Assembly: GCA_027065385.1 (NCBI GenBank) | Contig: JAMOOP010000077.1 | Span: forward strand, 1-42,804 | Direction of reading: 5' to 3' | From: Campylobacteraceae bacterium | GTDB lineage: Bacteria > Campylobacterota > Campylobacteria > Campylobacterales > Sulfurovaceae | DNA: 42,804 nucleotides | Shown here: positions 1-18,039 of the stretch, in pieces | Layout: each line of letters opens with the position of its first letter | How positions within the stretch are numbered: position 1 is the first letter of the stretch | Notes under the pieces: generated by a model | Told to the model about the DNA's origin: nothing | What the model saw: the letters and a program-made list of their open reading frames with translations, nothing else | Database searches by the model: none | Made by a program: the position numbers and the translations under genes

Positions 1-47
1 ATATCTTAATATTTTGTAGGTTATAATTAGGTTAAAGGAACTTTATT

Positions 48-1118: not shown

Positions 1119-1221
1119 ATTATTTTAAAGTCTGCTTACCAAAAAGTTGAGAAATTAGATAGTGCTTAGATTTGTAACTTATGGGTGAATTTTAGTTTTT
1201 TAATTATCGTAACGTTAATTG

Positions 1222-2415
1222 TTAATAGAGGAAACCAAAAATCCATAATGGGATTTTATTACCAAATCCAACTTCTATATCATCAGATACCACAAAACTA
1301 TTATCTATATCTTTTATCTGTTTAAAAGTTTTATTTTTACCACCTATTTCAAGAGTATACTTACTCTCTACCAAAAAATCACCCTCTTTAGCTATATTGA
1401 GTTTATATTTAAGTGATACTTGATTTGCAAAAAAAGTTTCTCTAATAGTACCTATCTCGTTACTTTCACAGTATGCAAAGAGCAGATTAGTATTGTTGAG
1501 ATATATTTTTGCTGGTTTGTTTATTTTTTTAATTCCTTTAGTATGTTCATTCACTAAAAGGAGCATCTGTCCATCATTTAAAAATTCAATATAATCATAA
1601 AGCTTTGCTCTACTAATTTCTGCTGTAGTCGCTATCTTAGTATAGTTTACTTCAAATGGTTTACTTTCACATACAACTTCAAGTAGCTTTTTTAATTTAT
1701 ATGTATATTTTTGCTCAATTAAGCCTAATGATGTTAAATCTAAATCTATTGTTAGATTGATAGTATTTAAAAGATTCTGATAATAAGATGTTTGCTTATC
1801 AAAATAAAATGGGTAATAACCTATTTTTAAATAGTTGTTAAAATCATTTAAAATATCTCTATTGTCATTAGTGATACCATTGGCAATCTCTAAATGATTA
1901 GTGATTAGATTCTCAAAACTATAACTATTTAAAGTAGTTTTATTTTTAATTTCAAGATATTCCCTAAAAGAGAAACCATTTAAACTATAAAGAGTTACTC
2001 TTCTACTTAAATCACTTTTTGAATTTAAAATTGATGTTGCACTGCTTCCTGTAAAAATCACTTTTATACTAAAAAGATCATAAATAGTTTTTAAGTAAGC
2101 ACTAAAATCTTTATATCGATGAATCTCATCAAGAAGTAGGTATTCTCCACCATCCTCTACAAACTCCTCTACTAAATCTATTAGATCCACTCCAGATAAA
2201 AAAGGGTAATCCATAGAGATATAAAGAGCTTTGATTTTTTTATCTTCAAGCTCTTTCAGATATTGAAATAATAATGTAGTCTTACCAATCCCTCTTGCTC
2301 CAAATATTGCAATCATTTTATCATCAAAATTTATTTCATTATAGAGGTATCTTTTATATTCTATATTTTGATTTTTTTTTAATCTGTTTTGGAATTTGAA
2401 TAATTTTTCTAACAT
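1222..2415 (-). CDS. AAA ATPase of the AAA_14/DUF4143 type
   Basis: A 397-aa P-loop ATPase. The Walker A motif is GARGIGKTTL, the Walker B region is EYLLLDEIHRY, and FTGSSATS follows as the sensor-like strand. After the ATPase domain comes a winged-helix region (TTAEISRAKLYDYIEFLNDG) and a C-terminal nuclease-like segment around FLVESKYTLEIGGK. This is the usual order in AAA_14/DUF4143 proteins, which are common in bacteria and archaea and poorly understood. I chose the ATG at 2415 because AGGAAG sits 5 bases before it; an open frame extends 13 codons further without a comparable site. It is convergent with the rep gene. The substrate or partner is unknown. Confidence 0.8.
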   Translation of the reverse strand: MLEKLFKFQNRLKKNQNIEYKRYLYNEINFDDKMIAIFGARGIGKTTLLFQYLKELEDKKIKALYISMDYPFLSGVDLIDLVEEFVEDGGEYLLLDEIHRYKDFSAYLKTIYDLFSIKVIFTGSSATSILNSKSDLSRRVTLYSLNGFSFREYLEIKNKTTLNSYSFENLITNHLEIANGITNDNRDILNDFNNYLKIGYYPFYFDKQTSYYQNLLNTINLTIDLDLTSLGLIEQKYTYKLKKLLEVVCESKPFEVNYTKIATTAEISRAKLYDYIEFLNDGQMLLLVNEHTKGIKKINKPAKIYLNNTNLLFAYCESNEIGTIRETFFANQVSLKYKLNIAKEGDFLVESKYTLEIGGKNKTFKQIKDIDNSFVVSDDIEVGFGNKIPLWIFGFLY

Positions 2416-2473
2416 TATACTTCCTATTATGTATTTGGTTATAGACAAATACAATTATAGCTAAAAAATTTAT

Positions 2474-2493
2474 AACTGTATAAATTTAAATAC
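2474..2493. promoter_or_regulatory. Imperfect palindrome upstream of the ATPase gene
   Basis: The arms CTGTAT and ATACAG enclose AAATTTAA about 60 bases upstream of the ATPase start at 2415 on the minus strand. This could be an operator for the ATPase gene or part of its promoter; nothing else supports it. Confidence 0.3.
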
Positions 2494-2605
2494 AGTCGTA
2501 ATATTAACTGCTGATATTTACAAAAAAACAGACACTCTAAAACAGCCAAACAGTTCAATAATCAAAGAAATCCAATTCTAAAACCAAATATTTAAAGAAT
2601 ACTTC

Positions 2606-2800
2606 CTATAAATCCAATAACTTCTTAATTTCATCACTAGAGTAATATTCAGAGATAGCTTTGTTAATAATGAAATCTAACTTCTTTTTTTCATTTAAGC
2701 CAATAGTTTCATTTTCAAGAACAGTAGCCATAATTTTAATTCTTTTTACGTTATCTAAATCTAAATTAACTCTTTTACCTATAACTTCATTTTCTTGCAT
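2606..2800 (-). CDS. Small hypothetical protein, possibly DNA-binding
   Basis: A 64-aa charged protein with no signal peptide or membrane segment. The N-terminal half (KRVNLDLDNVKRIKIMATVL) could form the strand-helix start of a ribbon-helix-helix fold, and the C-terminal half is helical (KKKLDFIINKAISEYY). A good ribosome binding site (AAGGAT) precedes the ATG. Small ribbon-helix-helix proteins on plasmids often repress copy number or toxin genes, but that role is only a suggestion here. It stands alone between the ATPase gene and a long AT-rich gap. Confidence 0.55.
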   Translation of the reverse strand: MQENEVIGKRVNLDLDNVKRIKIMATVLENETIGLNEKKKLDFIINKAISEYYSSDEIKKLLDL

Positions 2801-2809
2801 TTAATATCC

Positions 2810-3324
2810 TTTTATTAAAAAACTAACAATATTATACTTTTAATTAACAAAAAATACAATTAATAAAACAAAACCACTTTTTAATCAATTTTCCTCACTT
2901 TCTCAAACCTTAAAGAGTCACCCTTTTTGACCCATTATACCTCTTAAATAATATACATAATTACTAATTAAGTACACGAAATAAGAAAAACAAAGCAAAA
3001 AGAACTAAAATAAGACCATATAAAGCAATTAAATCTATTTATCTAAATTAGTTAAATGTAATATTTTATCAATAAATAAGAAAAACTCAATAAAACCTTT
3101 AACTTGAAATATATAATTAATATAAATTATAAATAATAGAAATATTTGCTTTAAATAGATAAAAATATAAAAGTTGACATTAATAGTGATAAAGAAGATA
3201 TTTATACATTTAGATAGATATTTCAAAAAAAATAATGAATAAAACAAGGTTAAATCTATTTTACTTTAAATTCTATCAATATTTGAGAAATAAGGAATTA
3301 TCCTCATAGAAAAGTTGTTCGATT
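2810..3324. other. AT-rich non-coding stretch with AAATAGAT-type motifs
   Basis: About 515 bases with no convincing gene. Several short motifs related to AAATAGATAAA occur in both orientations: near 3030-3044 (TAAATCTATTTATCT), 3151-3162 (TTAAATAGATAA), 3211-3220 (TTAGATAGAT) and 3252-3266. The 14-mer TCTATTTTACTTTA at 3255-3268 recurs exactly at 29787-29800. The stretch could contain an origin with degenerate iterons, but spacing is irregular and base composition alone makes such matches easy, so I treat this as weak. Confidence 0.3.
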
Positions 3325-3462
3325 TTATTGGGGTACTATACTTGAAGAAACACCAAATTCCTCTGCAAGTTTTGTTATAGAAAGTGCATCTCCATCATTG
3401 AGTTTTGAAAGGATTGTTGTTAGTCTTGTTAGAATTCTATCGTAGTCGTGTTTATATGGCAT
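3325..3462 (-). pseudogene. Truncated duplicate of the WYL regulator N-terminus
   Basis: This 45-codon frame starts MPYKHDYDRILTRLTTILSK and matches the first 40 residues of the WYL-domain regulator at 12413-13333 with only four substitutions (LSITKLAEEFGVSS here against LSVIELAQEFGVSS). At DNA level about 12 of 121 bases differ. The 13 bases before the ATG are also nearly shared (AACTAGGAAACAAAA against AACTAGGAAAACCAAA). After FGVSS the sequence diverges and ends SIVPQ-stop, so the recognition helix and the whole WYL domain are missing. The copy points away from the island in the opposite direction from the full-length gene, so the two copies bracket the genes between them as inverted repeats. 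Confidence 0.85.
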
Positions 3463-3501
3463 TTTTGTTTCCTAGTTTGTTATATTTTAAAATTGATAAA
3501 C

Positions 3502-4104
3502 TTAAACCTCTATTATATGATAATTAGGAACATCACTATTTTCATTAAAAGCGGGATTATGAATAGTTGTATTTAAAAGTTTATCCATAGTTTTAACTGG
3601 TCTGTGTTGATGAGCACAAAGTAATATTTTTGGATTTATAACTTTCCTTTTAATCGCACTATACAGCTCTTTATCTCCCCAATCATCATTATCTTTATTT
3701 GTTGATATTTTTGTATTGGCTGGTGGTATGTGAGTAATCAAAATATCACATTCATCAAACTCAAAATAACCATCAGCACCAATATATGGATAGCAACCAA
3801 ACGTTATATCATCTATTTTTTTAATTGTATTATCAGCATAATAATTTGAGGTATCAATTTTATTTAACCACTCTTCATTCTCAAATTCATCTATATCGTG
3901 ATTCCCACTACATACAAAAAGTGGCTTATGAAACTTTTTTATCCAAATTGTTATCCACTCAATCTGCTCTAAAAGAGTTTCCTCTTTTGAGCTTTCTAAA
4001 AAATCACCGCTGATACAAAATATATCAAAATTATCTTGCTGTTGTGCTATCCATTCAAACCATCTTTTGTTGAAATGTAAATCTGTGGTGTGTAGTATTT
4101 TCAA
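3502..4104 (-). CDS. Calcineurin-like metallophosphoesterase
   Basis: A 200-aa single-domain phosphoesterase with the full metal-binding set: D8 and H10 (TTDLH), G33-D34 (ISGDF), G67-N-H-D70 (SGNHD), H125 (THIPP) and the terminal AHQH (H165, H167). The family hydrolyses phosphomonoesters or phosphodiesters, including cyclic nucleotides and nucleic acids; the substrate is unknown. Translation appears to start at TTG 4104 with AGGAA upstream. It is the last gene of the minus-strand operon, one base after the DUF2779 nuclease gene, so it is probably co-expressed with McrBC. Confidence 0.85.
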   Translation of the reverse strand: MKILHTTDLHFNKRWFEWIAQQQDNFDIFCISGDFLESSKEETLLEQIEWITIWIKKFHKPLFVCSGNHDIDEFENEEWLNKIDTSNYYADNTIKKIDDITFGCYPYIGADGYFEFDECDILITHIPPANTKISTNKDNDDWGDKELYSAIKRKVINPKILLCAHQHRPVKTMDKLLNTTIHNPAFNENSDVPNYHIIEV

Positions 4105-4105
4105 A

Positions 4106-5596
4106 TTATTTTCCTATACCTACTTCTGATATAATCTGATATAATTTTTTCAAAATCCGAACCATAGCCAATGTATCTAATCGGCAATAGGCAAGTAAAT
4201 CTTTTTTTATATCTACTAATTTACTTTTATCTTTTAGCAGATATAAGTTAGCAAACGTATCCATAGCATCCCCACCATTTTGAATACTTCCTAGCTTTTT
4301 ATAGTCAAGTTCATCATCATCTGGAAATAGTGTTGGTAAAACAATTTTTATAGAGTATTTACCATTAAATTTTGGATGATAGTAGTGTTTATATTGGAAT
4401 GGGTAAGCTAGATCTATAAACCTCTCATTTAAAGCCAAAAGTTCATCACTAACATCTGAATATACTAAAGCTAAGTTTTTTATCTGTGTTATCTCAAATG
4501 ATTGATTATAAGCTATGATTGAACCAGTTGCTGTAATGTCTTTTAACATTTGTTCAGATAGTGGTCTTCTTGGATCACTATTTTCATCTCCTAAAAACTC
4601 TTTATGTTCTAGTGTTCCATCTTCATGTAAAATATGTAGTGAATACTGAAATGGCATCTGAGAATAAGGTCTTTGGTTGTTAAATCTTGGAATGGCATTT
4701 TGAAAAGTCTCAAAATCAAAAAAGTTTATAGGGTACTCGATAGTCTCTAAAAACTCTTTTATTTTTGGCTTATCTATTTTTATCTCTTGTGATTTATGAT
4801 GTTTAATCTGCATACGAGCATTCTTACCTAGACGAAAATCATCTGGAACATCATCAATACTAAGTATATCGTCATAGTAAAGTTTCCATTGCTTACCCAT
4901 TGCATAGGATATATCAAATACTGAATTATTTTTAGGTATATGCTGCCAACAATGAGAACTAAAATCACATCCATGAGGATCACTACAATGTTTACCAATA
5001 TCTATATTTGGTATATCATCTTTAAGCATCTCTTGCATTTCAAGAAGTTGAGGTTCGATTGACTCTTGTTTTTCTAAAACTATATCTGTTATATCATCAA
5101 TGGTAAATAACTCTTTTATATTAAGCTCACCATCTCTTACATACTTATTGTTTATATGAACAACATAAGCTCGATTTAGATTTATAGCTTTAGAGAGTGC
5201 ATACCATTGAATTGAAGTATCGTTAATATGATATTCTTTTGTGTGAGTGGAAGCTTTTACTTCATATATATCCCAAGAATTTTCATTTTTAACTAAAATA
5301 TCAGCCATTACAAATATGCCATCTTCTTTGAATGATGCTTCGTAAATTACTTCTGTACCATTAGTTATAAGCTCTTTAGTTTTCTCTATCATACCATTGA
5401 AATTAGAACTATCAAACGCTATCTCAACACCATTTGGAAACAACTCTTTAGCCAACTCACCAACATCAAATCCCGTATTGAAATTTGATTCTATTTGACT
5501 ATTTGGTGTATCTCTTAGCTCTTTGTTATTTTTATATAACCATAGAGATTTGTGACATTGTAAACCTCTTATGTATTGGGATTTGGATAGGGTCAT
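4106..5596 (-). CDS. DUF2779 protein: Cas4/RecB-like nuclease plus DEDD exonuclease domains
   Basis: A 496-aa protein of the DUF2779 type. The N-terminal half resembles Cas4/AddB-like PD-(D/E)XK nucleases: D99 (MADILV), E112-V-K114 (YEVKAS) and a following Q-x-Y (SIQWYAL). C14 together with C204, C210 and C216 could hold an iron-sulfur cluster, as in Cas4. The C-terminal half has an RNase H-fold exonuclease signature: D294 and E296 (FFDFETF), then IAYNQSFE near 361-368 and a late RLDTLAM. The ATG overlaps the mcrC stop (TAATG), so the two are translationally coupled. A DNA-processing role alongside McrBC is likely but inferred. Confidence 0.8.
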   Translation of the reverse strand: MTLSKSQYIRGLQCHKSLWLYKNNKELRDTPNSQIESNFNTGFDVGELAKELFPNGVEIAFDSSNFNGMIEKTKELITNGTEVIYEASFKEDGIFVMADILVKNENSWDIYEVKASTHTKEYHINDTSIQWYALSKAINLNRAYVVHINNKYVRDGELNIKELFTIDDITDIVLEKQESIEPQLLEMQEMLKDDIPNIDIGKHCSDPHGCDFSSHCWQHIPKNNSVFDISYAMGKQWKLYYDDILSIDDVPDDFRLGKNARMQIKHHKSQEIKIDKPKIKEFLETIEYPINFFDFETFQNAIPRFNNQRPYSQMPFQYSLHILHEDGTLEHKEFLGDENSDPRRPLSEQMLKDITATGSIIAYNQSFEITQIKNLALVYSDVSDELLALNERFIDLAYPFQYKHYYHPKFNGKYSIKIVLPTLFPDDDELDYKKLGSIQNGGDAMDTFANLYLLKDKSKLVDIKKDLLAYCRLDTLAMVRILKKLYQIISEVGIGK

Positions 5597-6870
5597 TAAA
5601 GTAGCTCTTTTAATGGAATTTTTATACCAAATTTACATATATTACTAAAATCCTTTTCTTTTTCAAAATCATCATTAATTGATTCTTTCCCATCTACTTT
5701 TGGATAGATAAATAATATTTTTGCTTCTTCATTATCAGATAATCCAATATCTTTTCTAATTTTAGTAACTCTTCCATATAGAGATAACTGTTGATAATCA
5801 CCTTTGAATTTATTAGCTTTATCACTTTCTTTAAACCAATATTTATATTTAGCATCAATGATAAGTTTTTCTTCTTTTAGAATAAAATCTGGTCGAAGTC
5901 CCCAATGATAGCTATTACCATCTTTTCGACCATAACCTGAGACTAAAGCACCTTTATATTTTTCTCTAAGTTTTACTTCTACATATCTTTCAAATAACTC
6001 AGGCATGTCAATATAAAAAGGTGGTATTTTATACTTTTCTTTATAATCTGTATCATTTAAGCTAAATCCAAATCGTTTAAATATCATTTGTGCTAATTTT
6101 AAAGCTTCTTTATACTCTTTATAAAATGGAGAATATTTTGTTTTTGAAAAATCACTATTAAATACCTCTTTCCTATTAACTAAATCAAAAGAATTTAGGT
6201 TTGACTTTATTAATTTAGCTATATCATCATTACTAATACCATATAAGTTTCTGCTACATTGCAATAATGCAGTTTTTAATATCTGATTTTCAATACAATC
6301 AACAGTATATATTTGATGATTACACACTGTTTTATCAAGTCTATTTTTAAAATGATTTTGTTTAATAGTTTGGTTAATTAAAATTTTACCTTTAATCTTA
6401 GAAGTTAGATTTTCAGTAACTTTTATATAACCCTTTTTTAAACCTTTTATTGATATATTTTTAACTATTTGTAAAAATTGTAATATTAATAATGGTGTTA
6501 TCTCATCTTTAGAATTTTCAATTTCTATCCATTTTTCATTAAAAAATATTTTATATGTTTCATCTAAATGCTTACTAGTAATAGGGTCTTTTAAACATAC
6601 TAAAAACATTTTCAAATAATCAGCTTGATAGTTCTTATTCACTTTTGGTGCAATATGAATATATTCATTTACTTTATCATTAAACCATCTATATCCAATG
6701 TAGTAATGTGATTTTAATTTAACTTCAAAACTATCAAACTCTTGATGAAGACCTAAATATTTTGGATTTTGTTCATCATAAAGATTATTAAACTCTTTTA
6801 ACTTCTCTTCATCAAATTTACTATCACTAGATACTTGAGTATGTTCAGTAGAATCAACTATCGCTTTCAA
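5596..6870 (-). CDS. mcrC: McrC nuclease subunit of a type IV restriction system
   Basis: A 424-aa McrC-family protein. McrC is the nuclease subunit that binds a McrB ring and cuts modified (usually cytosine-methylated) DNA. Visible features are the McrC central motif MPELFERYV (289-297) and a PD-(D/E)XK active site formed by RPDF (D328) and DAKYK (D339, K341). The start is probably TTG at 6870, which overlaps the end of mcrB by 17 bases; no ATG is suitably placed. The gene order mcrB-mcrC is classical, and the next gene (DUF2779) overlaps its stop codon. The function is well supported; the recognised DNA modification cannot be read from sequence. Confidence 0.9.
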   Translation of the reverse strand: MKAIVDSTEHTQVSSDSKFDEEKLKEFNNLYDEQNPKYLGLHQEFDSFEVKLKSHYYIGYRWFNDKVNEYIHIAPKVNKNYQADYLKMFLVCLKDPITSKHLDETYKIFFNEKWIEIENSKDEITPLLILQFLQIVKNISIKGLKKGYIKVTENLTSKIKGKILINQTIKQNHFKNRLDKTVCNHQIYTVDCIENQILKTALLQCSRNLYGISNDDIAKLIKSNLNSFDLVNRKEVFNSDFSKTKYSPFYKEYKEALKLAQMIFKRFGFSLNDTDYKEKYKIPPFYIDMPELFERYVEVKLREKYKGALVSGYGRKDGNSYHWGLRPDFILKEEKLIIDAKYKYWFKESDKANKFKGDYQQLSLYGRVTKIRKDIGLSDNEEAKILFIYPKVDGKESINDDFEKEKDFSNICKFGIKIPLKELL

Positions 6871-8155
6871 ACTTCAACTCTTCTACTTTTTCCCTAGCAT
6901 TTTCATTTAATACACCATCTTTTATATATTCTCTTAAAAGTGGTTTTACTTGATATTCCAATTTATTTTTCAGCTCTTCTGCATCTTTTGCAATAAAGTA
7001 TGAGTGTCCAATTTTGATATCTTCAATATTAAATTCTGGTGATATATAATCATTAGTGAATAATTTAATTGTTTCATCATAAAGTTTTTTACCTTTAGGA
7101 AATTTGCTTAGAATATTGTTTTCATTAGATAATACATCAACAAATGTAAATCTTCTTCTTATTGCATAATCTATGTGTCCTATACTTCTATCAGCTGTAT
7201 TCATTGTACCAATTATATATAAATTAGATGGTAGAATTATTTTTCGACTACCTTCTAATTCATACATACTTTCAACAGCTTCATCACGATACTCTAAAGC
7301 ATAAATTAGTTCTCCTAGCACCGATGATAAGTTTGCTCTATTAATCTCATCAATTATTAAAATATACTTTTTATCTTTATTTATCTCCTTATTTGCTTCT
7401 TCTGCCATTTGTCCTAAAACTTTGTTTTGTGTTTCATACTTAACACTTTTCCCGTCAGCTGTGGTAGTTGCTATAATACCTCTCACAAAATCCTCATAAC
7501 TATATGATGGATGAAATTGGATTAGTTTGATTTGATTTTTATTAATCTTAGCAAAGCTATTTTTAATATCATCGTTTGTTTCTATCTTTGAGGAACTATC
7601 AATCATACTTATTGCTATTTGTTTAGCTACCCTTGTCTTACCTGTTCCGGGAGGTCCTTGCAATATAATTTGTTTTTGATACTCTAATAATTTTGTTTTT
7701 TCTTTAATTTTCATTTTGACTTCTTCCTTAATTATTAATTTATGCCATTCTTGAATATAGTCGCCAATTGTATATTTTTCATTATTTATATCTCCAGTAA
7801 ATTTACTACAAGATTGAAGTGTTGTAGGATAATATGCAGAGCCTAGTTTTTTTGGTAATTTAAATTTAGTATCATATTTAGATAAAATTTTTATCTTTCT
7901 TCGATGCTCAAACCAATCAGTATCTGGACTTAATTCATGTTGATATTCTCCAACTATTGATACAAGTGCCACCGCTCCTTTGTGTCGTATAAGTACAATA
8001 TCCCCTTTTTGCATACTATTTTTAAATTGAGCTATTTGATTATGTCCTTTTTCCCAATCCCCTAAACCAATATATTCTGTTTCTAAAATTTTATATATTT
8101 TATCTTGCGTATCAGTATCATCATCTTGATGAAGTTGCATATGCCAATAATTCAT
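6854..8155 (-). CDS. mcrB: McrB-type GTPase with N-terminal EVE-like domain
   Basis: A 433-aa AAA+ motor of the McrB family. Positions from the chosen start: a PUA/EVE-like N-terminal domain (MNYWHMQLH..., with GDIVLIRHKGAVALVSIVGEY near 51-71), which in this class reads modified bases; Walker A GPPGTGKT at 167-174; Walker B plus the McrB signature IIDEINRANLSSVLGEL from 267; the NTADRS signature near 319-324; and an IRRRF arginine finger region near 332-336. I chose ATG 8155 because GGAGG lies 6 bases before it. The same frame stays open about 25 codons upstream and looks protein-like (VEVTASFDDLK), perhaps the tail of a lost fusion partner. It acts with McrC downstream. Confidence 0.9.
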   Translation of the reverse strand: MNYWHMQLHQDDDTDTQDKIYKILETEYIGLGDWEKGHNQIAQFKNSMQKGDIVLIRHKGAVALVSIVGEYQHELSPDTDWFEHRRKIKILSKYDTKFKLPKKLGSAYYPTTLQSCSKFTGDINNEKYTIGDYIQEWHKLIIKEEVKMKIKEKTKLLEYQKQIILQGPPGTGKTRVAKQIAISMIDSSSKIETNDDIKNSFAKINKNQIKLIQFHPSYSYEDFVRGIIATTTADGKSVKYETQNKVLGQMAEEANKEINKDKKYILIIDEINRANLSSVLGELIYALEYRDEAVESMYELEGSRKIILPSNLYIIGTMNTADRSIGHIDYAIRRRFTFVDVLSNENNILSKFPKGKKLYDETIKLFTNDYISPEFNIEDIKIGHSYFIAKDAEELKNKLEYQVKPLLREYIKDGVLNENAREKVEELKFESDS

Positions 8156-8245
8156 TCTATCCTCCAAGTTTATTTTTAAATCATCAAAAGAAGCAGTAAC
8201 TTCTACTTCCTCACTTTCTACTATAATGCTCTCAATTCAAGACCA

Positions 8246-9122
8246 TTAAAATAAAATCTCTTCCAACCCACAAAGTCCCGTCAAAGGAACAGAGTAGCTA
8301 TACTCATTATTCACTTGATACTCATCTGTATTTATACGAATTAAAGTAGCATTTTTATAACTATTTGAGATTAAATTCCCTTTTTTACGAACAGTTGGAA
8401 TAGTTGTACCTGCTCCAATTTCAATTATAACCATTTTTTGAGAAGTCTTTTGTATATTTTCAAACCAAGTATTGAATTTTTGCTCTTGAAAATAGGTTCT
8501 ACTATCATCCCAATGCCAATCTGCAAACATAAATATATTTGGTCTTGCTACACTACCACAAGATGGACATTTAGGTACATTTATAGCTTCAAATGTATCT
8601 TTATTAATAATTACATTTTCATCATCAGACGACCAAACACTATCATCACAATCAGCAACACATTGTAAATAATGAATAGTTCCATGTATCTCTAATATCT
8701 TATTTTCATCAAATCCAGCTTTTTGGAATTGTCCATCTACATTAGAGGTAAAAATAAAATAATCGTTCTTCTTTTTTTCTACCTACATTAGAGGTAAAAA
8801 TAAAATAATCGTTCTTCTTTTTTTCTACTAAATCTAAAAGTAGTTTAAAACCATTATGAGGAATAGTATCTCTGTAAAGATTGAGTCTATGACCATAAAA
8901 AGCCCAAGCTAACTTTGGGTTAGAAGTGAACCATTTAGGATTAGCCATTCCTTGAAATCCTATCCCTAAATCTTTAATAATAGGATATGCTTTCCAAAAC
9001 CCTTCATTACCTCTAAAGTCTGGTAATCCACTATCTACACCCATACCAGCTCCTGCTGTTATAAGTATGCTATCTGCTTCTTCTATTAATTTTTTTATTG
9101 TTTCTATCTCTTCTTTTAGCAT
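8246..9122 (-). pseudogene. SIR2-family (sirtuin) gene interrupted by a 46-bp tandem duplication
   Basis: Two frames together encode one sirtuin. The first (9122 to 8742) has the NAD-binding GAGMGVDSG (residues 24-32), LPDFRG and FTSNV; it then runs into the second copy of a 46-bp direct repeat and stops. If one repeat copy is removed, the frame continues as TSNVDGQFQKAGFDENK, the catalytic EIHGTIH, a four-cysteine zinc ribbon (CVADC, then CPSCG) and a normal C-terminus ending at 8246, about 275 aa in all, usual for the family. Sirtuins use NAD to deacylate proteins or, in defence systems, to deplete NAD. The gene follows a 5'-nucleotidase gene by 23 bases and precedes mcrB. As written it is non-functional unless the duplication is lost or is an assembly error. 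Confidence 0.88.
8737..8828. repeat. Perfect 46-bp tandem direct repeat x2 inside the sirtuin gene
   Basis: Positions 8737-8782 and 8783-8828 are identical 46-base copies, each starting CTACATTAGAGG and ending TTTTTTTCTAC. Because 46 is not a multiple of three, the second copy shifts the sirtuin frame. Such duplications arise and revert by replication slippage or recombination between the copies. Confidence 0.95.
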
Positions 9123-9145
9123 TTTTACTCCTTGTTTTTTTATGT

Positions 9146-10054
9146 CTACTTATTTAAACTTTTATGAATAACTTTTGCACTAGGAACAACACTGGATGAC
9201 AAATCTAAATGAACATCTTGATCATCAAAAAATATATCTGCACCAAAGGCTTCGAGTATCTCATATTTTTCACTTCCACCTAAGAAAAATGCTTCATCAA
9301 TTCTAACACCCCAAACATTTAAAGTTTTGATAACTCGTTCATGTGTTGGTGCTGACCTTGCTGTTACCAATGCTGTACGTATAGGCGATTCTTTATCTTT
9401 AAACCTCTTTTGAATATTAGCAATAGTTAAAAGAAATTTTGCAAAGACACCCTCTTCTAAGGGGTTATCTCTATTTTCTTGTTCATGTTTTATAAATGAC
9501 TCTAAACCATGTTCTTTATATATAAGTTCAGAGGTTTCACTAAATAGTACAGCATCTCCATCAAATGCTATTTTGACTTGGTCATTTATTGAGTTGTTTA
9601 TATCTTGACTTGATGGAAGTATTTTTGCTGCGGCAACACTATTTTCAATAGCATTCATTACATCACTATCATCAGCACTTAAAAAAAGATCTACTTTAAA
9701 TGCTTTGAGATATTTAGATGTATCGTTACCACTCGTCCAAGCAGACCTTTTTATATCTAGCTTGTACTCATTGATAGCGTTTGTTATTCTAAGGCTTGTC
9801 CCTGCATTATTTTTAGACAAGATTATCACTTCAACCTGTTTTTCATCTTCATTAAAGTGTTGATTTATCTTTAAAAGATTTTCAACAACTCTATAACCTG
9901 TACCTTTTTGAAGTGGTGTATTTTCATTTTCAAGTTGGTATTTATAATAAGTATCTAAACCTTTCTCTTCAAAGATTTTATTTTCATCTTCAAGGTTAAA
10001 TAATGCTCTGGAGCTTACTGCTACTACTAATTTATTTTTTAGATTGTATGCCAT
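9146..10054 (-). CDS. Cytosolic 5'-nucleotidase, NT5C1-like
   Basis: A 302-aa protein of the 5'-nucleotidase family related to animal cytosolic 5'-nucleotidase I. These HAD-fold enzymes dephosphorylate nucleoside monophosphates such as AMP or IMP. The HAD motifs are FDGDAVLF (164-171; nucleophile D165 and D167), LVTARSAP (229-236) with conserved T/R, and FFDDQD (275-280). No signal peptide is present, so it is cytoplasmic. It lies 3 bases after an unknown ORF and 23 bases before the sirtuin gene in one operon. Next to NAD-related genes, a role in handling AMP or NMN released from NAD or ADP-ribose is plausible, but that is inference. Confidence 0.82.
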   Translation of the reverse strand: MAYNLKNKLVVAVSSRALFNLEDENKIFEEKGLDTYYKYQLENENTPLQKGTGYRVVENLLKINQHFNEDEKQVEVIILSKNNAGTSLRITNAINEYKLDIKRSAWTSGNDTSKYLKAFKVDLFLSADDSDVMNAIENSVAAAKILPSSQDINNSINDQVKIAFDGDAVLFSETSELIYKEHGLESFIKHEQENRDNPLEEGVFAKFLLTIANIQKRFKDKESPIRTALVTARSAPTHERVIKTLNVWGVRIDEAFFLGGSEKYEILEAFGADIFFDDQDVHLDLSSSVVPSAKVIHKSLNK

Positions 10055-10057
10055 CTT

Positions 10058-10342
10058 TTACTCATCTACACTTATAATCTGCATCTCAACCAAAGAACTC
10101 TCTTTATAAAGTTTCATAAATTCATCTTTAGTTAGTTGCTTCTCTGTACTGTCGTGATTATTATTACAATAAATATTTAGTTTATCACTCCCATCAGCAC
10201 TCAATTCAAAAAAATTATCTTTAGTTGAAAGCATAATAGTAGTTTGAGTAACTACTGTTGCATTGTCGCAAATATCGTTTAGTTCATCAATACTAAAAGT
10301 ATCTAAAAATCTTTGGTGTAATTTACTATTTTTATTTGGCAT
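10058..10342 (-). CDS. Small acidic protein of unknown function
   Basis: A 94-aa acidic, soluble protein that I do not recognise. It has a helical N-terminus (LHQRFLDTFSIDELNDICDN) followed by alternating strands (TTIMLSTKDNFFELS, KLNIYCNNN) and a final MQIISVDE. The ATG has AAGGATAG 7 bases upstream. It is the first gene of the minus-strand run that continues into the 5'-nucleotidase, sirtuin, McrB, McrC, DUF2779 and phosphoesterase genes, only 3 bases before the nucleotidase. Its 5' side is the repeat element at 10407-10535, which may carry the promoter. Confidence 0.6.
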   Translation of the reverse strand: MPNKNSKLHQRFLDTFSIDELNDICDNATVVTQTTIMLSTKDNFFELSADGSDKLNIYCNNNHDSTEKQLTKDEFMKLYKESSLVEMQIISVDE

Positions 10343-10406
10343 CTATTCTATCCTTTTAAACTATTTTAAATTTTCTATAAATATAATATACTTCAAAAGA
10401 ACATCA

Positions 10407-10535
10407 TAAGTAGTAGATAAAAATTAATTTCATACTCCTATATCTTTCTATTTTCATAGGTCTATTCTATTATCTTTTCATAGGTCTATTCTATTATCTT
10501 TTGTATTATGTAATCTATTTCTGATTACTACTTAC
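10407..10535 (-). repeat. Long inverted-repeat element, copy A (partner at 38727-38832)
   Basis: Read on the minus strand, this 129-bp element is nearly identical to 38727-38832 on the plus strand: the first 41 bases match exactly, and after allowing for one extra 24-bp unit only a few bases differ. Both copies begin TAAGTAGTA (after one or two bases) and end TACTACTTA, so each has 9-bp terminal inverted repeats like a miniature mobile element. A short frame reading MKIERY..SMKLIFIYYL is conserved in both. It lies between divergent genes at 10342 (minus) and 10547 (plus). Confidence 0.85.
10455..10502. repeat. 24-bp tandem repeat x2 with ATAGGTCTAT core
   Basis: Two perfect copies of a 24-base unit beginning CATAGGTCTATTC lie in tandem inside element A. 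Element B has only one copy, where the core is the perfect palindrome ATAGATCTAT. The 12-mer ATAGGTCTATTC also appears alone at 40431-40442. The near-palindromic core suggests a protein-binding site. Confidence 0.85.
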
Positions 10536-10546
10536 AAGGAAATATA

Positions 10547-10789
10547 ATGACAATTAGCGAAGTAAAAAATAAAGCCACATTTATTTGTGAACATATCGAC
10601 CCTAGTGGTAAACCAATTAATGGTTATTACAACAAAAAAGAGGATATTTACTATATTACTTATGATGCTGATGTAACTAGAGATAATATAGAGTTTGTTA
10701 CCTTTAAACAGGGCGATAAAATCAAAGATAATATACTATTTGACCCATTTTCTGAGTTTAAAATGATAAATCAGAGAAATGATTGTTAA
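10547..10789 (+). CDS. Hypothetical protein
   Basis: An 80-aa soluble protein that I do not recognise. It is mixed strand and charge (KATFICEHIDPSGKPING, EDIYYITYDADVTRD) and ends with acidic and polar residues. The ATG follows AAGGAAATATA, a fair ribosome binding site. It is the only plus-strand gene within the minus-strand island and starts 11 bases from repeat element A, which may supply its promoter. It converges with the esterase gene at 10811. Confidence 0.5.
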   Translation: MTISEVKNKATFICEHIDPSGKPINGYYNKKEDIYYITYDADVTRDNIEFVTFKQGDKIKDNILFDPFSEFKMINQRNDC

Positions 10790-10810
10790 ATAGTTTTGAG
10801 AAAGGATTTT

Positions 10811-11371
10811 TTATAAGTTATTACAAAAAAATTCTATCTCTTTAAAATGTTTCTCAACACCCTCAAAGCTATGATTTCCATTCTCTTCTATAAGCATTCT
10901 TGAACCTTCCATCTTATTAACAGCTTCTTTATAATCTAAAAGTTCATCTCCTTTTTGTACTAAAAGCATAAAATTCTCTTTTTTTAGATTTTTTACCTCA
11001 TACTTTTTAAGCATATCAAGATGAGAACTGTTCCATTCAAAGCTACTATTATCATAAAAGTTAGGTGTTGCATTTGATGTGTTGCTTAGTGTTTTATATG
11101 GATAGATAGAAGGGTTAAGAAGTACTGTATTTAGATTATACTTGTTACCCAAATAGATAGCATAAAAACCACCCATTGAAGAGCCTATAAGGTTTACCTC
11201 TCCATTGTATGACTCTATAATCTCCTCTAAAGTTGTTATCGCTAACTCTGGAACATAGGATAAAGAGGGAGCTATAAATGAAATATTTTTATTTTTAAAA
11301 TACTCTCTAAAAAGTTTTGCTTTAGAGCCTTGACCACTTCCACTAAATCCGTGTATATATATTGTTATCAT
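10811..11371 (-). CDS. YqiA-like alpha/beta-hydrolase esterase
   Basis: A 186-aa small alpha/beta hydrolase of the YqiA/UPF0227 type. Visible are the oxyanion-hole start IYIHGFSGSG, the nucleophile elbow IGSSMGG (G-x-S-x-G), a late acid region (LLVQKGDELLDY) and the catalytic histidine in NGNHSFEG. Family members hydrolyse short acyl esters; the physiological substrate is unknown. It follows the truncated SLOG gene and the ADP-ribosylglycohydrolase gene on the same strand. A deacylase of O-acetyl-ADP-ribose type would fit the sirtuin context, but nothing in the sequence proves this. Confidence 0.8.
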   Translation of the reverse strand: MITIYIHGFSGSGQGSKAKLFREYFKNKNISFIAPSLSYVPELAITTLEEIIESYNGEVNLIGSSMGGFYAIYLGNKYNLNTVLLNPSIYPYKTLSNTSNATPNFYDNSSFEWNSSHLDMLKKYEVKNLKKENFMLLVQKGDELLDYKEAVNKMEGSRMLIEENGNHSFEGVEKHFKEIEFFCNNL

Positions 11372-11384
11372 TTTTTTGCCTTTT

Positions 11385-11531
11385 TTAATATTTTACTACT
11401 ATAAGTTTTTTTTCTAATGTTTTAGTAAAGTTCATTGTGTATTTTTCAAGATATGAAGCCAACGTTTCAGTTAATAATTTTCTATTTTTAAAATCTCTAC
11501 TACCAATTATCGCTATTTTTATATCACTCAT
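11385..11531 (-). pseudogene. Truncated DUF2493/SLOG (YspA-like) protein
   Basis: A 48-codon frame beginning MSDIKIAIIGSRDFKNRKLL, the characteristic Rossmann-like start of DUF2493/YspA proteins (SLOG superfamily, predicted nucleotide or ADP-ribose binders). The usual domain is well over 100 residues; here it ends after ETLASYLEKY in a basic tail and a stop, so most of the fold is missing. Its ATG overlaps the end of the ADP-ribosylglycohydrolase gene (ATGAGTGA), showing it was once translationally coupled. It is a likely 3'-deleted remnant with the esterase gene joined behind it. A functional short peptide cannot be excluded. Confidence 0.65.
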
Positions 11532-12300
11532 AAAAAGTTTTTCCTAAATACAAAACAATATCATCTGTCAAAAAATCTGATATATCTATCTCATCTGCTA
11601 TATTTTGGTTCGCTCCTTTTATAGCTCCATATATCGCACAATTTGTATCAGTATCTCCACCATTAGAAACTATATATTTAAACCCTTCAGTAAAAGATAG
11701 GTTCATTTTTAAAGTTTCTATAACAATATACAATGAGTAAATAACCCAAGCAGTATGACCTAGTTTTAGTTTTGAAAGAATATTTTTATATATCTCTTTT
11801 TCTAATATGTTTATACCATTTATAGCAATATCTAAAGCTAATCTATTAGCTATAAATATAGTTTTATTTTTATGTGTAAGTGCTGAATCTTCATTCATCA
11901 AAGTAAGAGCATCTTCAAAACTATATCCATCTTTGATAAGTGCAATCCCAAAAGGTATCACTCTCATTAAAGCCCCATTACCCTCAGAGTCTTTGTTAGT
12001 GCTATTTTGAATAAGTACACTATATGTATGCATTCCTATTCCATCTCTAGCACCATCTTTGATAGCCCAATTTTTATAGGAGTTGAAAAGTACCTTTTTA
12101 TTTATCTTTTTATATTTGAAATAGTGTGTGAGTAATATATTTGCCATTTTTGTATCATCTGTAATCTCTCTATTTACAGCTTTATTTGGTAATAGTTTTC
12201 TATCAAAAGTAGTTCCCATTAAGCCATCTCTTTCAAAGTAAGAGCCATAACTATCGCCACAAGCGAGTGCTAATAAGGGTTGGTTTAATTTGAGTTTCAT
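11524..12300 (-). CDS. ADP-ribosylglycohydrolase (DraG-like)
   Basis: A 258-aa ADP-ribosylglycohydrolase. These enzymes remove ADP-ribose from proteins, nucleic acids or small molecules using two magnesium ions. The metal ligands are visible in ITDDTKMA (46-53) and GGDTDTN (214-220), and the substrate loop GNGALMR lies at 107-113. Its length is normal for compact family members. It is the first gene of a minus-strand unit with the SLOG remnant and esterase, and is divergent from the WYL regulator with a 112-base shared promoter region, so the regulator probably controls it. With the sirtuin and 5'-nucleotidase nearby, it points to NAD or ADP-ribose metabolism. Confidence 0.88.
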   Translation of the reverse strand: MKLKLNQPLLALACGDSYGSYFERDGLMGTTFDRKLLPNKAVNREITDDTKMANILLTHYFKYKKINKKVLFNSYKNWAIKDGARDGIGMHTYSVLIQNSTNKDSEGNGALMRVIPFGIALIKDGYSFEDALTLMNEDSALTHKNKTIFIANRLALDIAINGINILEKEIYKNILSKLKLGHTAWVIYSLYIVIETLKMNLSFTEGFKYIVSNGGDTDTNCAIYGAIKGANQNIADEIDISDFLTDDIVLYLGKTFYE

Positions 12301-12412
12301 ATTTACACCTTGTTTGAATTTTATATATTATACATTTTTTATTTGACATCTTTATGTCTGCTCTATTGTTTTATAGATAGAATATACTAATTTTAAAACT
12401 AGGAAAACCAAA
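12301..12412. promoter_or_regulatory. Divergent promoter region of the WYL regulator and ADP-ribosylglycohydrolase
   Basis: This 112-bp intergenic region lies between genes that start at 12300 (minus) and 12413 (plus). It is AT-rich, includes TATATTATACA, and shares the piece TTTTAAAACTAGGAAA next to the regulator ATG with the truncated copy at 3462. WYL regulators usually act at such divergent promoters. Confidence 0.5.
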
Positions 12413-13333
12413 ATGCCCTACAAACACGACTACGATAGAATCCTAACAAGACTAACAACAATCCTTTCAAAACTCAACGATGGAGATGCTCTTTCTGTAA
12501 TAGAACTTGCCCAAGAGTTTGGTGTTTCTTCAAGAACTATTCAGCGAGATTTCAATGAACGTTTAATCTCTTTTCCAATTTATCAAGAAAGGAAAAAGTG
12601 GAAAATGCAAGATGGATTTCGTGTTGAAAAAAGTAAATCTATCGAAGATGAACTTGTTTTAGATATTATCTCAAAAATTACAGAAAGTATCGGTGGTAAC
12701 TTTGCCACCAAATCACATACACTTCTTTCTAAAATCAAAAATGAAGATTTTAGCCCTATCTATGCAAAGTTAAATATAGAAGATATTAGCGATAAGTTTT
12801 CTGAAATACAGTTATTGGAAAAAGCGATAAAAGAGAAACTTATTATTCAATCTACCTATGATAAAGAAAATAAACAAATATCTACTTCAACTATTAAACC
12901 ACTTAAAATTGCAAATTTTGAAGGTTTTTGGTATCTTATAGCCCTTAAAGGAGAGAGTTTACGAAGCTATTATCTTAAAAATATATCTAATATTATTCTC
13001 AGTGAGGAACACTTCAAATCAGATACAAAGCTAGAAACACTCTTAGATAATGCTATCTCTATATGGTTTAGAAAAGATGTAGAACCATTTGAAGTAAAAC
13101 TTTTTGTAAAAAGTCATACAGCTAGGTATTTCAAACGTAGACCTCTTCCAACACAAAAAATAGAAACAGTAAATAGTGATGGTTCAATGGAGTTTACTCT
13201 AAAAATAACTGATGAGATGGAAATTTTACCTATTATAAAATATTGGATTCCTCATCTTTATGTTGTTGAACCTTTATGGTTAAAAGATATTATTCAAACC
13301 GATTTATTGAAATATTTAGGGAAAACAACTTAA
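12413..13333 (+). CDS. WYL-domain transcriptional regulator
   Basis: A 306-aa regulator. It has an N-terminal winged helix (residues about 8-60: NDGDALSVIELAQEFGVSSRTIQRDF) and a WYL domain in the middle (STIKPLKIANFEGFWYLIALKGE, near 155-180), followed by a C-terminal WCX-like extension. Proteins of this layout control many phage-defence islands and sense nucleic acids or nucleotides through the WYL domain. The ATG follows AGGAAAACC. It is divergent from the ADP-ribosylglycohydrolase operon, which it probably represses. A truncated inverted copy at 3325-3462 marks the other end of the island. Confidence 0.88.
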   Translation: MPYKHDYDRILTRLTTILSKLNDGDALSVIELAQEFGVSSRTIQRDFNERLISFPIYQERKKWKMQDGFRVEKSKSIEDELVLDIISKITESIGGNFATKSHTLLSKIKNEDFSPIYAKLNIEDISDKFSEIQLLEKAIKEKLIIQSTYDKENKQISTSTIKPLKIANFEGFWYLIALKGESLRSYYLKNISNIILSEEHFKSDTKLETLLDNAISIWFRKDVEPFEVKLFVKSHTARYFKRRPLPTQKIETVNSDGSMEFTLKITDEMEILPIIKYWIPHLYVVEPLWLKDIIQTDLLKYLGKTT

Positions 13334-13336
13334 AGC

Positions 13337-13362
13337 CGTAAGCTACCAACCAATAATATAGG
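13337..13362. terminator. Hairpin after the WYL regulator gene
   Basis: Just after the regulator stop, CTACCAACC and GGTGGTAG can pair around an AATAATATA loop with one bulged base. There is no clear T-run, so it may be a weak terminator or a processing hairpin. Confidence 0.35.
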
Positions 13363-13680
13363 TGGTAGTCATTGGGTATTTCAATAGATATAATATTCTC
13401 CTTCGCCATAGCCATTTTTCTATTACTTGTTGTTTGATGAGGTTTTGATTTATCAGTCTATTATATTATCTTGACAAGAAACTTCTTTACCATTTGTCAT
13501 TGAAATAGTTGAAATTGTTGTTATACTTATCTCGCTAAAAAACTCGCCATTTTAATAAAAGTATTTTGGATATTAATCTAATTAGAGCTTATTTATATAT
13601 GTATTTTACTTATTTTACATTCGCAAAATAGGTCGCCATACTTTGTGATATAATTGTATCAACACAATAAAAGTAGATAT
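13363..13680. other. Intergenic stretch with a possible minus-strand gene remnant
   Basis: I see no intact gene between the WYL regulator and the Fic gene. On the minus strand a frame over about 13468-13554 reads GEFFSEISITTISTIS, then MTNGKEVSCQDNIID and a stop, which looks like the C-terminus of a lost protein but has no start. The last 60 bases before the Fic ATG presumably hold its promoter (TGTGATATAATTG near 13643-13656). Confidence 0.35.
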
Positions 13681-14877
13681 ATGAATTTTACACCAATAAT
13701 TCCAACGGACATACAAGGAAATATAGATATTTCTCTATTAAAAAAAGCAGATAAATTATTATTAGAAGCTTCTAAGCTTGAAGGGTCTCATACACCACAA
13801 ATACTTCAATCTGTTAAGAATCTTCTCTATACAGTTAATAGTTACTATTCCAATAAAATAGAATCTGAAGGTACACACATTATCGATATTGAAAGAGCGA
13901 TGCAAAAAAACTACTCTACAGATTTTAAAAAAAGAAATCTTCAAATACTCTCATTAGTGCATATAGAGGTTCAAAAAGAGTGTGAAGAATATTTTAAAAG
14001 CAATCCGTTAGCCTCACCGTATGATAAAAAGTTTATTTTATCTCTTCACGAAAAATTTTATTCAAAAGATGGAATGAAACCATTTCTAAAAATTAATAGT
14101 GATGGAATGAACGATAATATTATTCCTGGAAAAATTAGAGAACGTGATGTTAAGGTCGGAAACCATATTGCACCAAGTTCTGATAAGTTAGATAGTCTGA
14201 TGAATGAGTTTGAATACCTATATAATAAATCGTTAAATTCTAGTGATACAGTTAAAATTATTCATATATTATCTTCTCATCATCGATTAATGTGGGTTCA
14301 TCCTTTTTTAGATGGAAATGGTAGAACATCACGACTTGCGCTAGATGGAGCATTTGCAAGTATGAATATGGGTGGTTATGGTTTATGGAATATTTCTCGT
14401 GGACTTGCTAGAAATTCCAATGATTATAAAAATAATTTATCGTATGCAGATATGCCAAGACAAGGTGCAAGAGATGGAAAAGGTTCATTGTCTTCTAACT
14501 CATTAAATTATTTTGTGAATTTTATGTTAGATGTTTCCTTAGATCAAGTAGCATATATGAATAAGCACCTAAAATTGAACTCTCTTACATCAAAAATCGA
14601 AATATATGTACAAAGAGTTAATGATGGTTTATTAGGGATTGATCCTCTTCCTAATCATAGTGAAAAAATATTTAGATATTTACTGCTTAGTGGCGAATGT
14701 AAGAGAGGAAAGATCCCTGATATTATAGGAATGAAAGAAAGAACAGCATCAAGAGTTATTTCAGAATTATTAAAAAGAAATTTTATAGAATCAGATACAA
14801 AAGCAGGTGCGATAAGATTAAAAATAGGTGCTTCAATGGCATCATATCTCTTTCCTATGCTTGTTCCTGAAGAATAA
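13681..14877 (+). CDS. Fic-domain protein (probable AMPylase) with C-terminal winged helix
   Basis: A 398-aa Fic protein. Fic enzymes transfer AMP or another phosphate-containing moiety onto target proteins. The catalytic motif HPFLDGNGR starts at H207 and is complete. The N-terminal helix carries SNKIES (57-62, with E61), resembling the (S/T)xxxE(G/N) inhibitory motif of class II Fic proteins. The C-terminus (near 325-390) looks like a winged helix (KRGKIPDIIGMKERTASRV). I chose ATG 13681; an upstream in-frame TTG lacks a better site. It is followed by a recombinase gene and the type I restriction-modification operon. Fic genes are known riders of type I loci in Campylobacterota. Confidence 0.9.
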   Translation: MNFTPIIPTDIQGNIDISLLKKADKLLLEASKLEGSHTPQILQSVKNLLYTVNSYYSNKIESEGTHIIDIERAMQKNYSTDFKKRNLQILSLVHIEVQKECEEYFKSNPLASPYDKKFILSLHEKFYSKDGMKPFLKINSDGMNDNIIPGKIRERDVKVGNHIAPSSDKLDSLMNEFEYLYNKSLNSSDTVKIIHILSSHHRLMWVHPFLDGNGRTSRLALDGAFASMNMGGYGLWNISRGLARNSNDYKNNLSYADMPRQGARDGKGSLSSNSLNYFVNFMLDVSLDQVAYMNKHLKLNSLTSKIEIYVQRVNDGLLGIDPLPNHSEKIFRYLLLSGECKRGKIPDIIGMKERTASRVISELLKRNFIESDTKAGAIRLKIGASMASYLFPMLVPEE

Positions 14878-14953
14878 TATACATAACTATACATTAAGTC
14901 TATTAAATGATATTATATAATACAATACAAAAAAACATCAAAGACAGGGCATT

Positions 14954-15853: not shown

Positions 15854-15900
15854 ATTCCAAAGAAATATGTTTATCTTTTAAATAATACATTCTATTCTAA

Positions 15901-15939
15901 ATTAATTATTATTTTTGTATTATTCCAATAATAATTAAT
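15901..15939. repeat. 12-bp perfect inverted repeat before the half-HsdS gene
   Basis: ATTAATTATTAT (15901-15912) and ATAATAATTAAT (15928-15939) are exact reverse complements separated by 15 bases. The repeat ends 16 bases before the GTG start at 15956. It may be an operator for the restriction operon or a binding site of the adjacent recombinase. The AT-only composition lowers its weight. Confidence 0.55.
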
Positions 15940-15955
15940 ATAAAAGGAGTGAATT

Positions 15956-18038: not shown

Positions 18039-18039
18039 G

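Follow-up and report, generated by a model that had tools for sequence, protein, structure and literature searches.

Host systems built around an ARG domain and predicted to counter viral ADP-ribosylation have been described by Iyer, Burroughs, Anantharaman and Aravind (2022; PMC9503650, section 3.8). In these the ARG domain is accompanied by a phosphatase or HAD 5'-nucleotidase, a WYL regulator and restriction-endonuclease effectors. Together with WYL-controlled defence islands they are the closest described kind to the locus reported here, the general kind of which was already predicted by Iyer et al. (2022; PMC9503650). The WYL proteins BrxR and CapW are established repressors with palindromes in the promoters. 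Sir2, ARG, SLOG and macro domains are reportedly found together in NAD-utilising operons, as outlined by de Souza and Aravind. A census of McrBC systems makes no mention of DUF2779, Sir2, ADP-ribose or nucleotidase (PMC11090510), and our literature search returned no paper joining DUF2779 with McrB.

Gene content and decay of the locus

In the window, by which we mean the whole stretch of 42,804 nucleotides that was analysed, the island genes lie on a Campylobacterota contig that resembles a plasmid. A search with positions 1-14000 of the window matched no near-identical plasmid. No overlap was found between the contig ends, and circularity is therefore not established. The genes named in a preliminary description of this DNA were all found in their places by Pfam assignments and open reading frames (ORFs). 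The nearly contiguous minus-strand run that it proposed is tight from the nucleotidase onward but consists of two units with 468 bp between them. Unit 1 comprises ARH, a SLOG remnant and a YqiA-like gene, and unit 2 a 94-aa ORF, NT5C, Sir2, McrB, McrC, DUF2779 and a phosphoesterase. The gap holds an uncharacterised plus-strand 80-aa ORF (10547..10789) and a 24-bp tandem repeat. The spacings within unit 2 agree with those described (NT5C-Sir2 23, Sir2-McrB 90, McrB-McrC -17, McrC-DUF2779 -1 and DUF2779-phosphoesterase +1 nt). Catalytic motifs are intact in ARH, NT5C, McrB, McrC, DUF2779, the phosphoesterase and the YqiA-like protein.

Unit 1 begins with the ADP-ribosylglycohydrolase-family protein ARH (11524..12300, minus strand; PF03747, 7.1e-24), in which alignment shows the metal-site motifs TDDT and GGDTDTN to be intact. 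It belongs to a small subfamily almost confined to Campylobacterota, and in a wider scan this subfamily lies repeatedly near McrBC, Sir2, WYL, NT5C and a recurrent protein, f8. The predicted model of f8 is fair, with a pLDDT of 80, and a fold search with it gave no match at E below 0.001. The stop of ARH is overlapped by the start of the DUF2493/SLOG-like remnant (11388..11531, minus strand), 48 codons with the translation MSDIKIAIIGSRDF... and assigned to its family by motif only. The YqiA-like alpha/beta hydrolase (UPF0227; 10811..11371, minus strand; PF05728, 6e-37) follows, and adjoins WYL in the relative G072 too.

Unit 2 opens with the 94-aa ORF (10058..10342, minus strand), which has recurrent homologues in related loci; G111 has three of them, and a separate operator accompanies each. 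The next gene, NT5C, encodes a cytosolic 5'-nucleotidase I-like HAD phosphatase (9146..10054, minus strand; PF06189, 5.6e-122) and matches the PADLOC candidate family PDC-S08 with 414 bits. NT5C was rejected as a locus marker by itself, as homologues of 55-61% identity lie in loci with no other island gene. The sirtuin gene (8246..9122, minus strand) is present as described but broken: within 8729-8828, 46 bp are duplicated exactly and in tandem, which shifts the reading frame and leaves two pieces in different frames, so that the assembled sequence encodes no intact sirtuin. Uninterrupted copies are found in the relatives G072, L101 and L103.

The remainder of the unit is a nuclease set. The McrB-like AAA+ motor (AAA_5 by Pfam and motifs; 6854..8155, minus strand) has Walker motifs and MNTADRS, and the adjacent McrC nuclease subunit (5596..6870, minus strand; PF10117, 6.6e-34) has a PD-(D/E)XK motif, IDAKYK. 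These features and the overlap of the two genes are those of McrBC type IV restriction, from which the locus differs in that DUF2779 follows McrBC. The N-terminal ~140 aa of McrB differ from those of a second McrB of the same genome; for this region, where a reader of modified bases would be expected, no Pfam, PDB or viral-contig relative was found, and its AlphaFold model is poor (pLDDT 38). The DUF2779 protein (4106..5596, minus strand; PF11074, 1e-43, with RNase_H_2 and Cas4 profiles and motifs) consists of a Cas4-like nuclease part and an RNase H/DnaQ-like exonuclease part. The unit ends with a calcineurin-like phosphoesterase (3502..4104, minus strand; PF00149, 1.2e-15, and motifs).

The full-length HTH-WYL-WCX transcriptional regulator (12413..13333, plus strand; Pfam WYL, WCX and HTH) is the hub of the locus. 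The inverted, truncated copy of its 5' end at the other side is confirmed: 130 nt (3341-3470, against 12405-12534 of the full gene) are 90% complementary, and 45 codons are open on the minus strand (3328..3462). The truncated copy has no operator, and we therefore gave up the idea that the two WYL copies form a pair of regulatory sites.

With the ARG-centric systems the locus shares the ARG domain, a WYL regulator, a HAD 5'-nucleotidase and calcineurin-like phosphatases, restriction effectors and variable accessory genes. Here the ARH has its metal site intact, the WYL gene diverges from ARH with a predicted operator between them, and NT5C and the phosphoesterase are present, though in a separate unit from ARH. 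The published systems were chosen for having no coupled sirtuin or ART, whereas a sirtuin gene lies in this locus and in its relatives; McrBC and DUF2779 are not named among them, and no operator is described (PMC9503650). As in the NAD-utilising operons, Sir2, ARH and a SLOG remnant stand together here, but McrBC is attached to them. No macro, NADAR or Nudix domain was recognised in the island.

The WYL regulator and its predicted operator

The ARH/WYL divergent promoter contains the palindrome GACATCTTTATGTC (12345..12358), a predicted WYL operator of the form GACA-N6-TGTC whose centre lies 51 bp from the ARH start and 62 bp from the WYL start. It is the sole exact GACA-N6-TGTC within the window, and its PWM score is 26.7, the runner-up in the window scoring 9.0. 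Even allowing one mismatch, no operator precedes the second unit of the window, so that WYL control of NT5C-McrBC-DUF2779, as had been suggested for McrBC, is not borne out at this locus; the operator is restricted to ARH-(SLOG)-YqiA and to WYL itself.

Across 38 WYL loci 78 such sites were counted, preceding WYL genes and neighbouring operons; 76 are intergenic and 44 lie 40-59 bp upstream of an ORF. Control loci gave two sites, neither of them intergenic, and spacers of lengths other than 6 gave 1-6 sites in the WYL loci. As the motif was first found by inspecting the upstreams of these same loci, these statistics are partly circular; counts over whole genomes are less so. WYL homologues of the window type, with at least 57% identity, occur in six other relatives. 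The operator core TAAAGN is found in all nine loci with a window-type WYL and in 0/14 other loci; 7/7 genomes with such a WYL have the core at intergenic sites, against 3/142 without. The operator core thus co-varies with the WYL clade. The genome of the window has exactly three core sites (and none of the reversed pattern, as a control), one in the window and two on another contig, which carries a second McrB-McrC-DUF2779 set. Matches to GACATAAAGTTGTC in about a dozen genomes, considered as a wider regulon, were discarded because almost every one of them falls within a single coding gene (by eye clpP).

From these sequence patterns we infer that the WYL protein binds the predicted operator. 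The arrangement resembles BrxR and CapW islands, where an HTH-WYL-WCX protein beside defence genes is associated with a promoter palindrome and type IV restriction is among the commonest partners; the palindrome predicted here likewise lies in the regulator's own and its putative target promoters. The Acinetobacter BrxR site (ATACCGTAAAAATAATTTACTGTAT) is unlike GACA-N6-TGTC, and here, in contrast to those islands, a single motif stands before many operons of a locus and is met again on a second contig.

Recurrence in relatives

Pairs of genes within 12 kb were counted in 148 relatives, the window's own genome being left out. WYL and DUF2779 are paired in 9 genomes (0.24 expected), WYL and McrC in 5 (0.22), DUF2779 and McrC in 4 (0.16), WYL and a long Sir2 in 4 (0.29) and McrC and ARH in 3 (0.20), whereas the control HsdR gave 0 or 1 genome per pair. 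In 6/148 genomes (0.83 expected) McrC or DUF2779 has a Sir2, ARH or NT5C gene no more than 8 kb away; for type I HsdR the count is 1/148 (0.9 expected). The co-occurrence proposed beforehand thus exceeds chance, although at the level of sites the difference is modest (9/78 for McrC/DUF2779 and 2/93 for HsdR; Fisher P 0.024).

Restriction and NAD-related genes adjoin in several relatives, so that the refuting outcome named in the preliminary description, in which McrBC-DUF2779 would never stand next to the NAD-related genes, did not occur. ARH overlaps McrB in G103, where an ARH-McrB-McrC run with a phosphoesterase homologue (48%) upstream has neither an operator nor a window-type WYL nearby. 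McrC-McrB-ARH are adjacent in G108, and a Sulfurimonas MAG (L106) has McrB and McrC followed by ARH, with a homologue (77%) of the 80-aa ORF between McrC and ARH. Runs led by an operator are f8-DUF2779-McrB-McrC-AAA14-NT5C and 162aa-Sir2 in G142, ARH-f8-Sir2-Sir2-AAA-phosphatase and WYL-DnaQ-209aa-NT5C in G072, and 217aa-AAA-McrB-McrC-DUF2779-WYL in G128. The overlapping ORFs of G103 and these shared operator-led runs indicate co-expression in relatives.

A regulated module of NAD/ADP-ribose and restriction genes, as the preliminary description had it, is consistent with the co-location, the shared operator-led operons and the presence of WYL in relatives. The exact combination finds no support as one system: no other locus has the full set, and the second McrBC-DUF2779 set of the same genome has no NAD gene beside it. 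A mechanistic tie of NAD turnover to DNA cutting, also part of that description, likewise finds no support. The modules recur in varying arrangements about a single WYL clade. Because relatives carry the genes reshuffled behind one switch site beside a WYL gene, the locus looks, from its sequence, like a partly decayed copy of a modular anti-phage locus.

Such variety could also come from generic accretion, with unrelated genes gathered at a plasmid hot spot and the landing place alone in common. No two loci share the same set, and gene order and orientation vary between them; the SLOG remnant, broken sirtuin and truncated WYL of the window are visible decay, and DUF2779 elsewhere joins Qat, GmrSD and PDDEXK genes. 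However, HsdR is equally island-prone and is without the pattern, and the overlap and shared runs noted above also speak against accretion, which we consider doubtful.

A probable modular anti-phage locus and its possible meaning

We think it probable that the locus is a copy, in part decayed, of a modular Campylobacterota anti-phage locus that is reshuffled between genomes, with cooperating modules grouped about one WYL clade. The WYL regulator would bind GACA-N6-TGTC in its own promoter and in those of neighbouring operons, and may hold these off (or poised) until infection or damage yields its ligand. Two types of module would be loaded into such loci. The ADP-ribose/nucleotide module consists of ARH, NT5C and Sir2, often joined by f8, a two-domain AAA+ protein and a phosphatase. 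Its most likely task is to take off or process ADP-ribose marks, for example those left by phage ADP-ribosyltransferases, and the products of their breakdown. The nuclease module, here McrB-McrC-DUF2779, would cut modified phage DNA and degrade the ends. Their co-expression could meet T4-type phages, which combine modified DNA with ADP-ribosylation of host proteins.

The WYL regulon might instead be a DNA-damage or general stress response, its regulator sensing ssDNA or nucleotides and the restriction and NAD genes serving as stress effectors, not specifically as anti-phage ADP-ribose repair. DNA-damage WYL regulators do exist (DriD binds ssDNA and SiwR answers genotoxic stress), and regulons of relatives take in DnaQ-like, AAA+ and other non-restriction genes. 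Most recognisable operator-led genes, however, are type IV restriction (McrBC, GmrSD), DUF2779, Sir2 and ARH, which are typical of conflict systems and make this alternative unlikely. NAD-depleting Sir2 defences are established, and NT5C is a PADLOC defence candidate whose relatives adjoin other defence genes on plasmids; abortive infection, in which cutting by McrBC would be followed by a stalling of the cell as Sir2, ARH and NT5C deplete or recycle its NAD and nucleotides, is nevertheless improbable, since the sirtuin is short, deacylase-like, without effector fusion and broken here, and characterised ARH relatives remove rather than add ADP-ribose.

The modular anti-phage reading may extend, more tentatively, to a regulon of a kind not yet described. 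In this a WYL clade and its co-evolving operator would control exchangeable plasmid and chromosomal Campylobacterota cassettes, in which ADP-ribose repair (ARH, NT5C, Sir2) is paired with type IV restriction (McrBC or GmrSD plus DUF2779). The two would be induced as a single response to phages that both carry modified DNA and ADP-ribosylate the host, and the control would extend in trans to islands at other places in the genome. If WYL binds the operator, the predicted connection of ADP-ribose removal with the restriction of modified DNA could be tested directly with two promoters and one regulator. The motif would then also be a code from which the regulation of a large and variable Campylobacterota defence regulon can be read, and each operon that follows GACA-N6-TGTC in the vicinity of a WYL gene of this kind would be a defence candidate, including the unnamed families of f8, the 94-aa protein and the two-domain AAA+ protein.

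Gene content and setting of the island

The contig is plasmid-like, as judged from a Rep3 initiator (48-1118), an actin-like segregation-type protein of the ParM/Alp type (28664-29569), a tyrosine recombinase (14954-15853) and a type I restriction system; this system and a YgjP-like metallopeptidase share the stretch 13654-24267 with a Fic protein and a recombinase. No overlap of the contig ends was found. An 812-aa ankyrin-repeat protein is encoded at 34374-36812. An Arcobacter plasmid (L034) likewise carries Fic plus type I restriction.

In the island (3325-13333) Pfam bears out the ADP-ribosylglycohydrolase (ARH), UPF0227/YqiA, PF06189 nucleotidase (NT5C), McrB, McrC, DUF2779, calcineurin phosphoesterase and WYL genes of the preliminary description. 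The Sir2 domain is also matched, but the sirtuin is not intact: its frame is shifted by an exact 46-bp tandem duplication (8729-8828), which, given an assembly of 175 contigs, could reflect either mutation or misassembly. The other island enzymes keep their catalytic motifs. What had been described as one near-contiguous minus-strand set consists of two units, ARH-SLOG remnant-YqiA and 94aa-NT5C-Sir2-McrB-McrC-DUF2779-phosphoesterase, separated by 468 bp that include a plus-strand ORF; a second exact tandem repeat, of 24 bp (near 10451, 10451-10502), lies in the gap upstream of the latter unit. The family of the 94-aa protein (10058-10342) recurs in loci L061, L095 and L098, with three copies in genome G111, each with its own operator. 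The truncated inverted WYL copy is real (90% alike over 130 nt, open reading 45 codons). It has a parallel in L101 (17980-18572), where an additional WYL copy near NT5C is read in two pieces.

A predicted operator and its WYL regulator

Listing the sequences upstream of WYL genes brought out the palindrome GACA-N6-TGTC. It occurs at 78 sites in 38 WYL loci (627 kb), at least one counted twice via overlapping loci; 76 are intergenic and 67 have an ORF beginning no more than 150 bp downstream, for 44 of them at 40-59 bp, while the same half-sites with other spacers give 1-6 sites and 25 control loci without this WYL (431 kb) give two, both intragenic. The loci were picked for WYL before the motif was noticed; since it was discovered in them, there is some circularity in these figures, and less in the counts over whole genomes. 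The inner six bases are TAAAGN in all nine loci with a close homologue of the window's full-length WYL; the 14 loci whose WYL is of another kind all lack this core. Of the 149 genomes, those with this WYL type (7/7) all have intergenic TAAAGN sites, against 3 of the 142 others, further matches being coding. Chiefly because of this co-variation, the WYL protein is named as the putative reader.

Operator-led runs, predicted from spacing rather than transcripts, were traced as co-directional genes with gaps of up to 130 bp. Joint runs are f8-DUF2779-McrB-McrC-AAA14-NT5C and 162aa-Sir2 in G142, ARH-f8-66aa-Sir2-Sir2-AAA-phosphatase-PcfJ-like and WYL-DnaQ-209aa-NT5C in G072, 217aa-AAA-McrB-McrC-DUF2779-WYL in G128, GmrSD-GmrSD-DUF2779-WYL in G104 and ARH-147aa-Sir2 in locus L103. 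Within the window an operator leads just ARH and WYL, and none precedes the 94aa-NT5C-McrBC run even with one mismatch allowed. The regulated NAD-McrBC module proposed earlier is partly supported, by such runs in relatives and by a loose association of the genes, but not by operator placement in the window itself.

The own genome has three TAAAGN cores, one at 12345-12358 and two on contig C113, the latter upstream of genes preceding a second McrB-McrC-DUF2779 run (L068 1-8100; 64, 62 and 80% identity over aligned parts). This set differs in its McrB N-terminus and has no adjoining NAD gene (Sir2, ARH or NT5C). C113 may derive from the same plasmid as the window, or it may be contaminating sequence.

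Association of NAD genes with McrBC and DUF2779

Families were mapped in the own genome and 148 relatives, those named being Campylobacterota (Sulfurimonas, Sulfurovum, Campylobacteraceae). Proximity was judged against a uniform expectation and against type I HsdR, an equally mobile control that matters because the former takes no account of defence-island clustering. Within 12 kb, leaving out the own genome and taking closer WYL homologues, WYL-DUF2779 pairs occur in nine genomes (0.24 expected), WYL-McrC in five (0.22), DUF2779-McrC in four (0.16), WYL-long Sir2 in four (0.29) and McrC-ARH in three (0.20); each HsdR pair occurs in 0 or 1. Pooled, a NAD gene lies within 8 kb of McrC/DUF2779 in six genomes against 0.83 expected, and of HsdR in one against 0.9. 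By site, 9/78 McrC/DUF2779 and 2/93 HsdR have a NAD gene within 12 kb (P 0.024). The HsdR comparison supports an association that is real but loose.

Nor are NAD genes always apart from McrBC-DUF2779: ARH overlaps the start of McrB, followed by McrC, in G103; G108, which matches a Sulfurospirillum plasmid record, has McrC-McrB-ARH with Sir2 on the opposite strand; and G142 joins the set to NT5C. Further loci carry McrB-McrC-orf80-ARH (L106), McrB-McrC-446aa-1062aa-f8-ARH (L102), DUF2779 and ARH-Sir2 (L103), ARH-AAA-WYL-Sir2-NT5C (L101, a single-cell genome) and ARH-94aa-f8-Sir2-WYL (L098). The Arcobacter plasmid L034 reads WYL-AAA-VWA-DUF2779-NT5C, its NT5C 78% identical to the window's. L106, L102, L103, L101 and L098 come from a broader search with the ARH subfamily, which turned up 10 loci, nine of them close; eight belong to Campylobacterota records, and the source of one is a MAG that carries the label Gracilibacteria. 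The recurrent 212-aa protein f8 (L038 7274-7912 and relatives) adjoins ARH or DUF2779-McrBC and has no relative found in Pfam or PDB. In an Aliarcobacter cryaerophilus plasmid (L110 9001-10500) DUF2779 lies directly 3' of a Qat system; it may serve defence operons of this phylum more generally as an added nuclease. Simple accretion of genes is a less likely account of the island and the foremost of the alternatives.

Relation to known systems and proposed role

The island very closely resembles the predicted ARG-centric systems, whose WYL or Nudix regulator is proposed to be induced by ADP-ribose or nucleosides that ARG and phosphatases release (Iyer et al., 2022, PMC9503650). That set requires no coupled sirtuin, whereas the island has a sirtuin gene, and for this reason it is not filed there. 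The preliminary description knew of no system with this combination; its interpretation had in part already been predicted in the literature (Iyer et al., 2022). The new element is the predicted operator and its co-variation with the WYL regulator.

A stress regulon is rather improbable, and NAD-based abortive infection more doubtful still. The best reading is a WYL-switched, exchangeable anti-phage locus able to load ADP-ribose processing together with type IV restriction. McrBC paired with ADP-ribose genes would suit phages that both modify their DNA and ADP-ribosylate host proteins.
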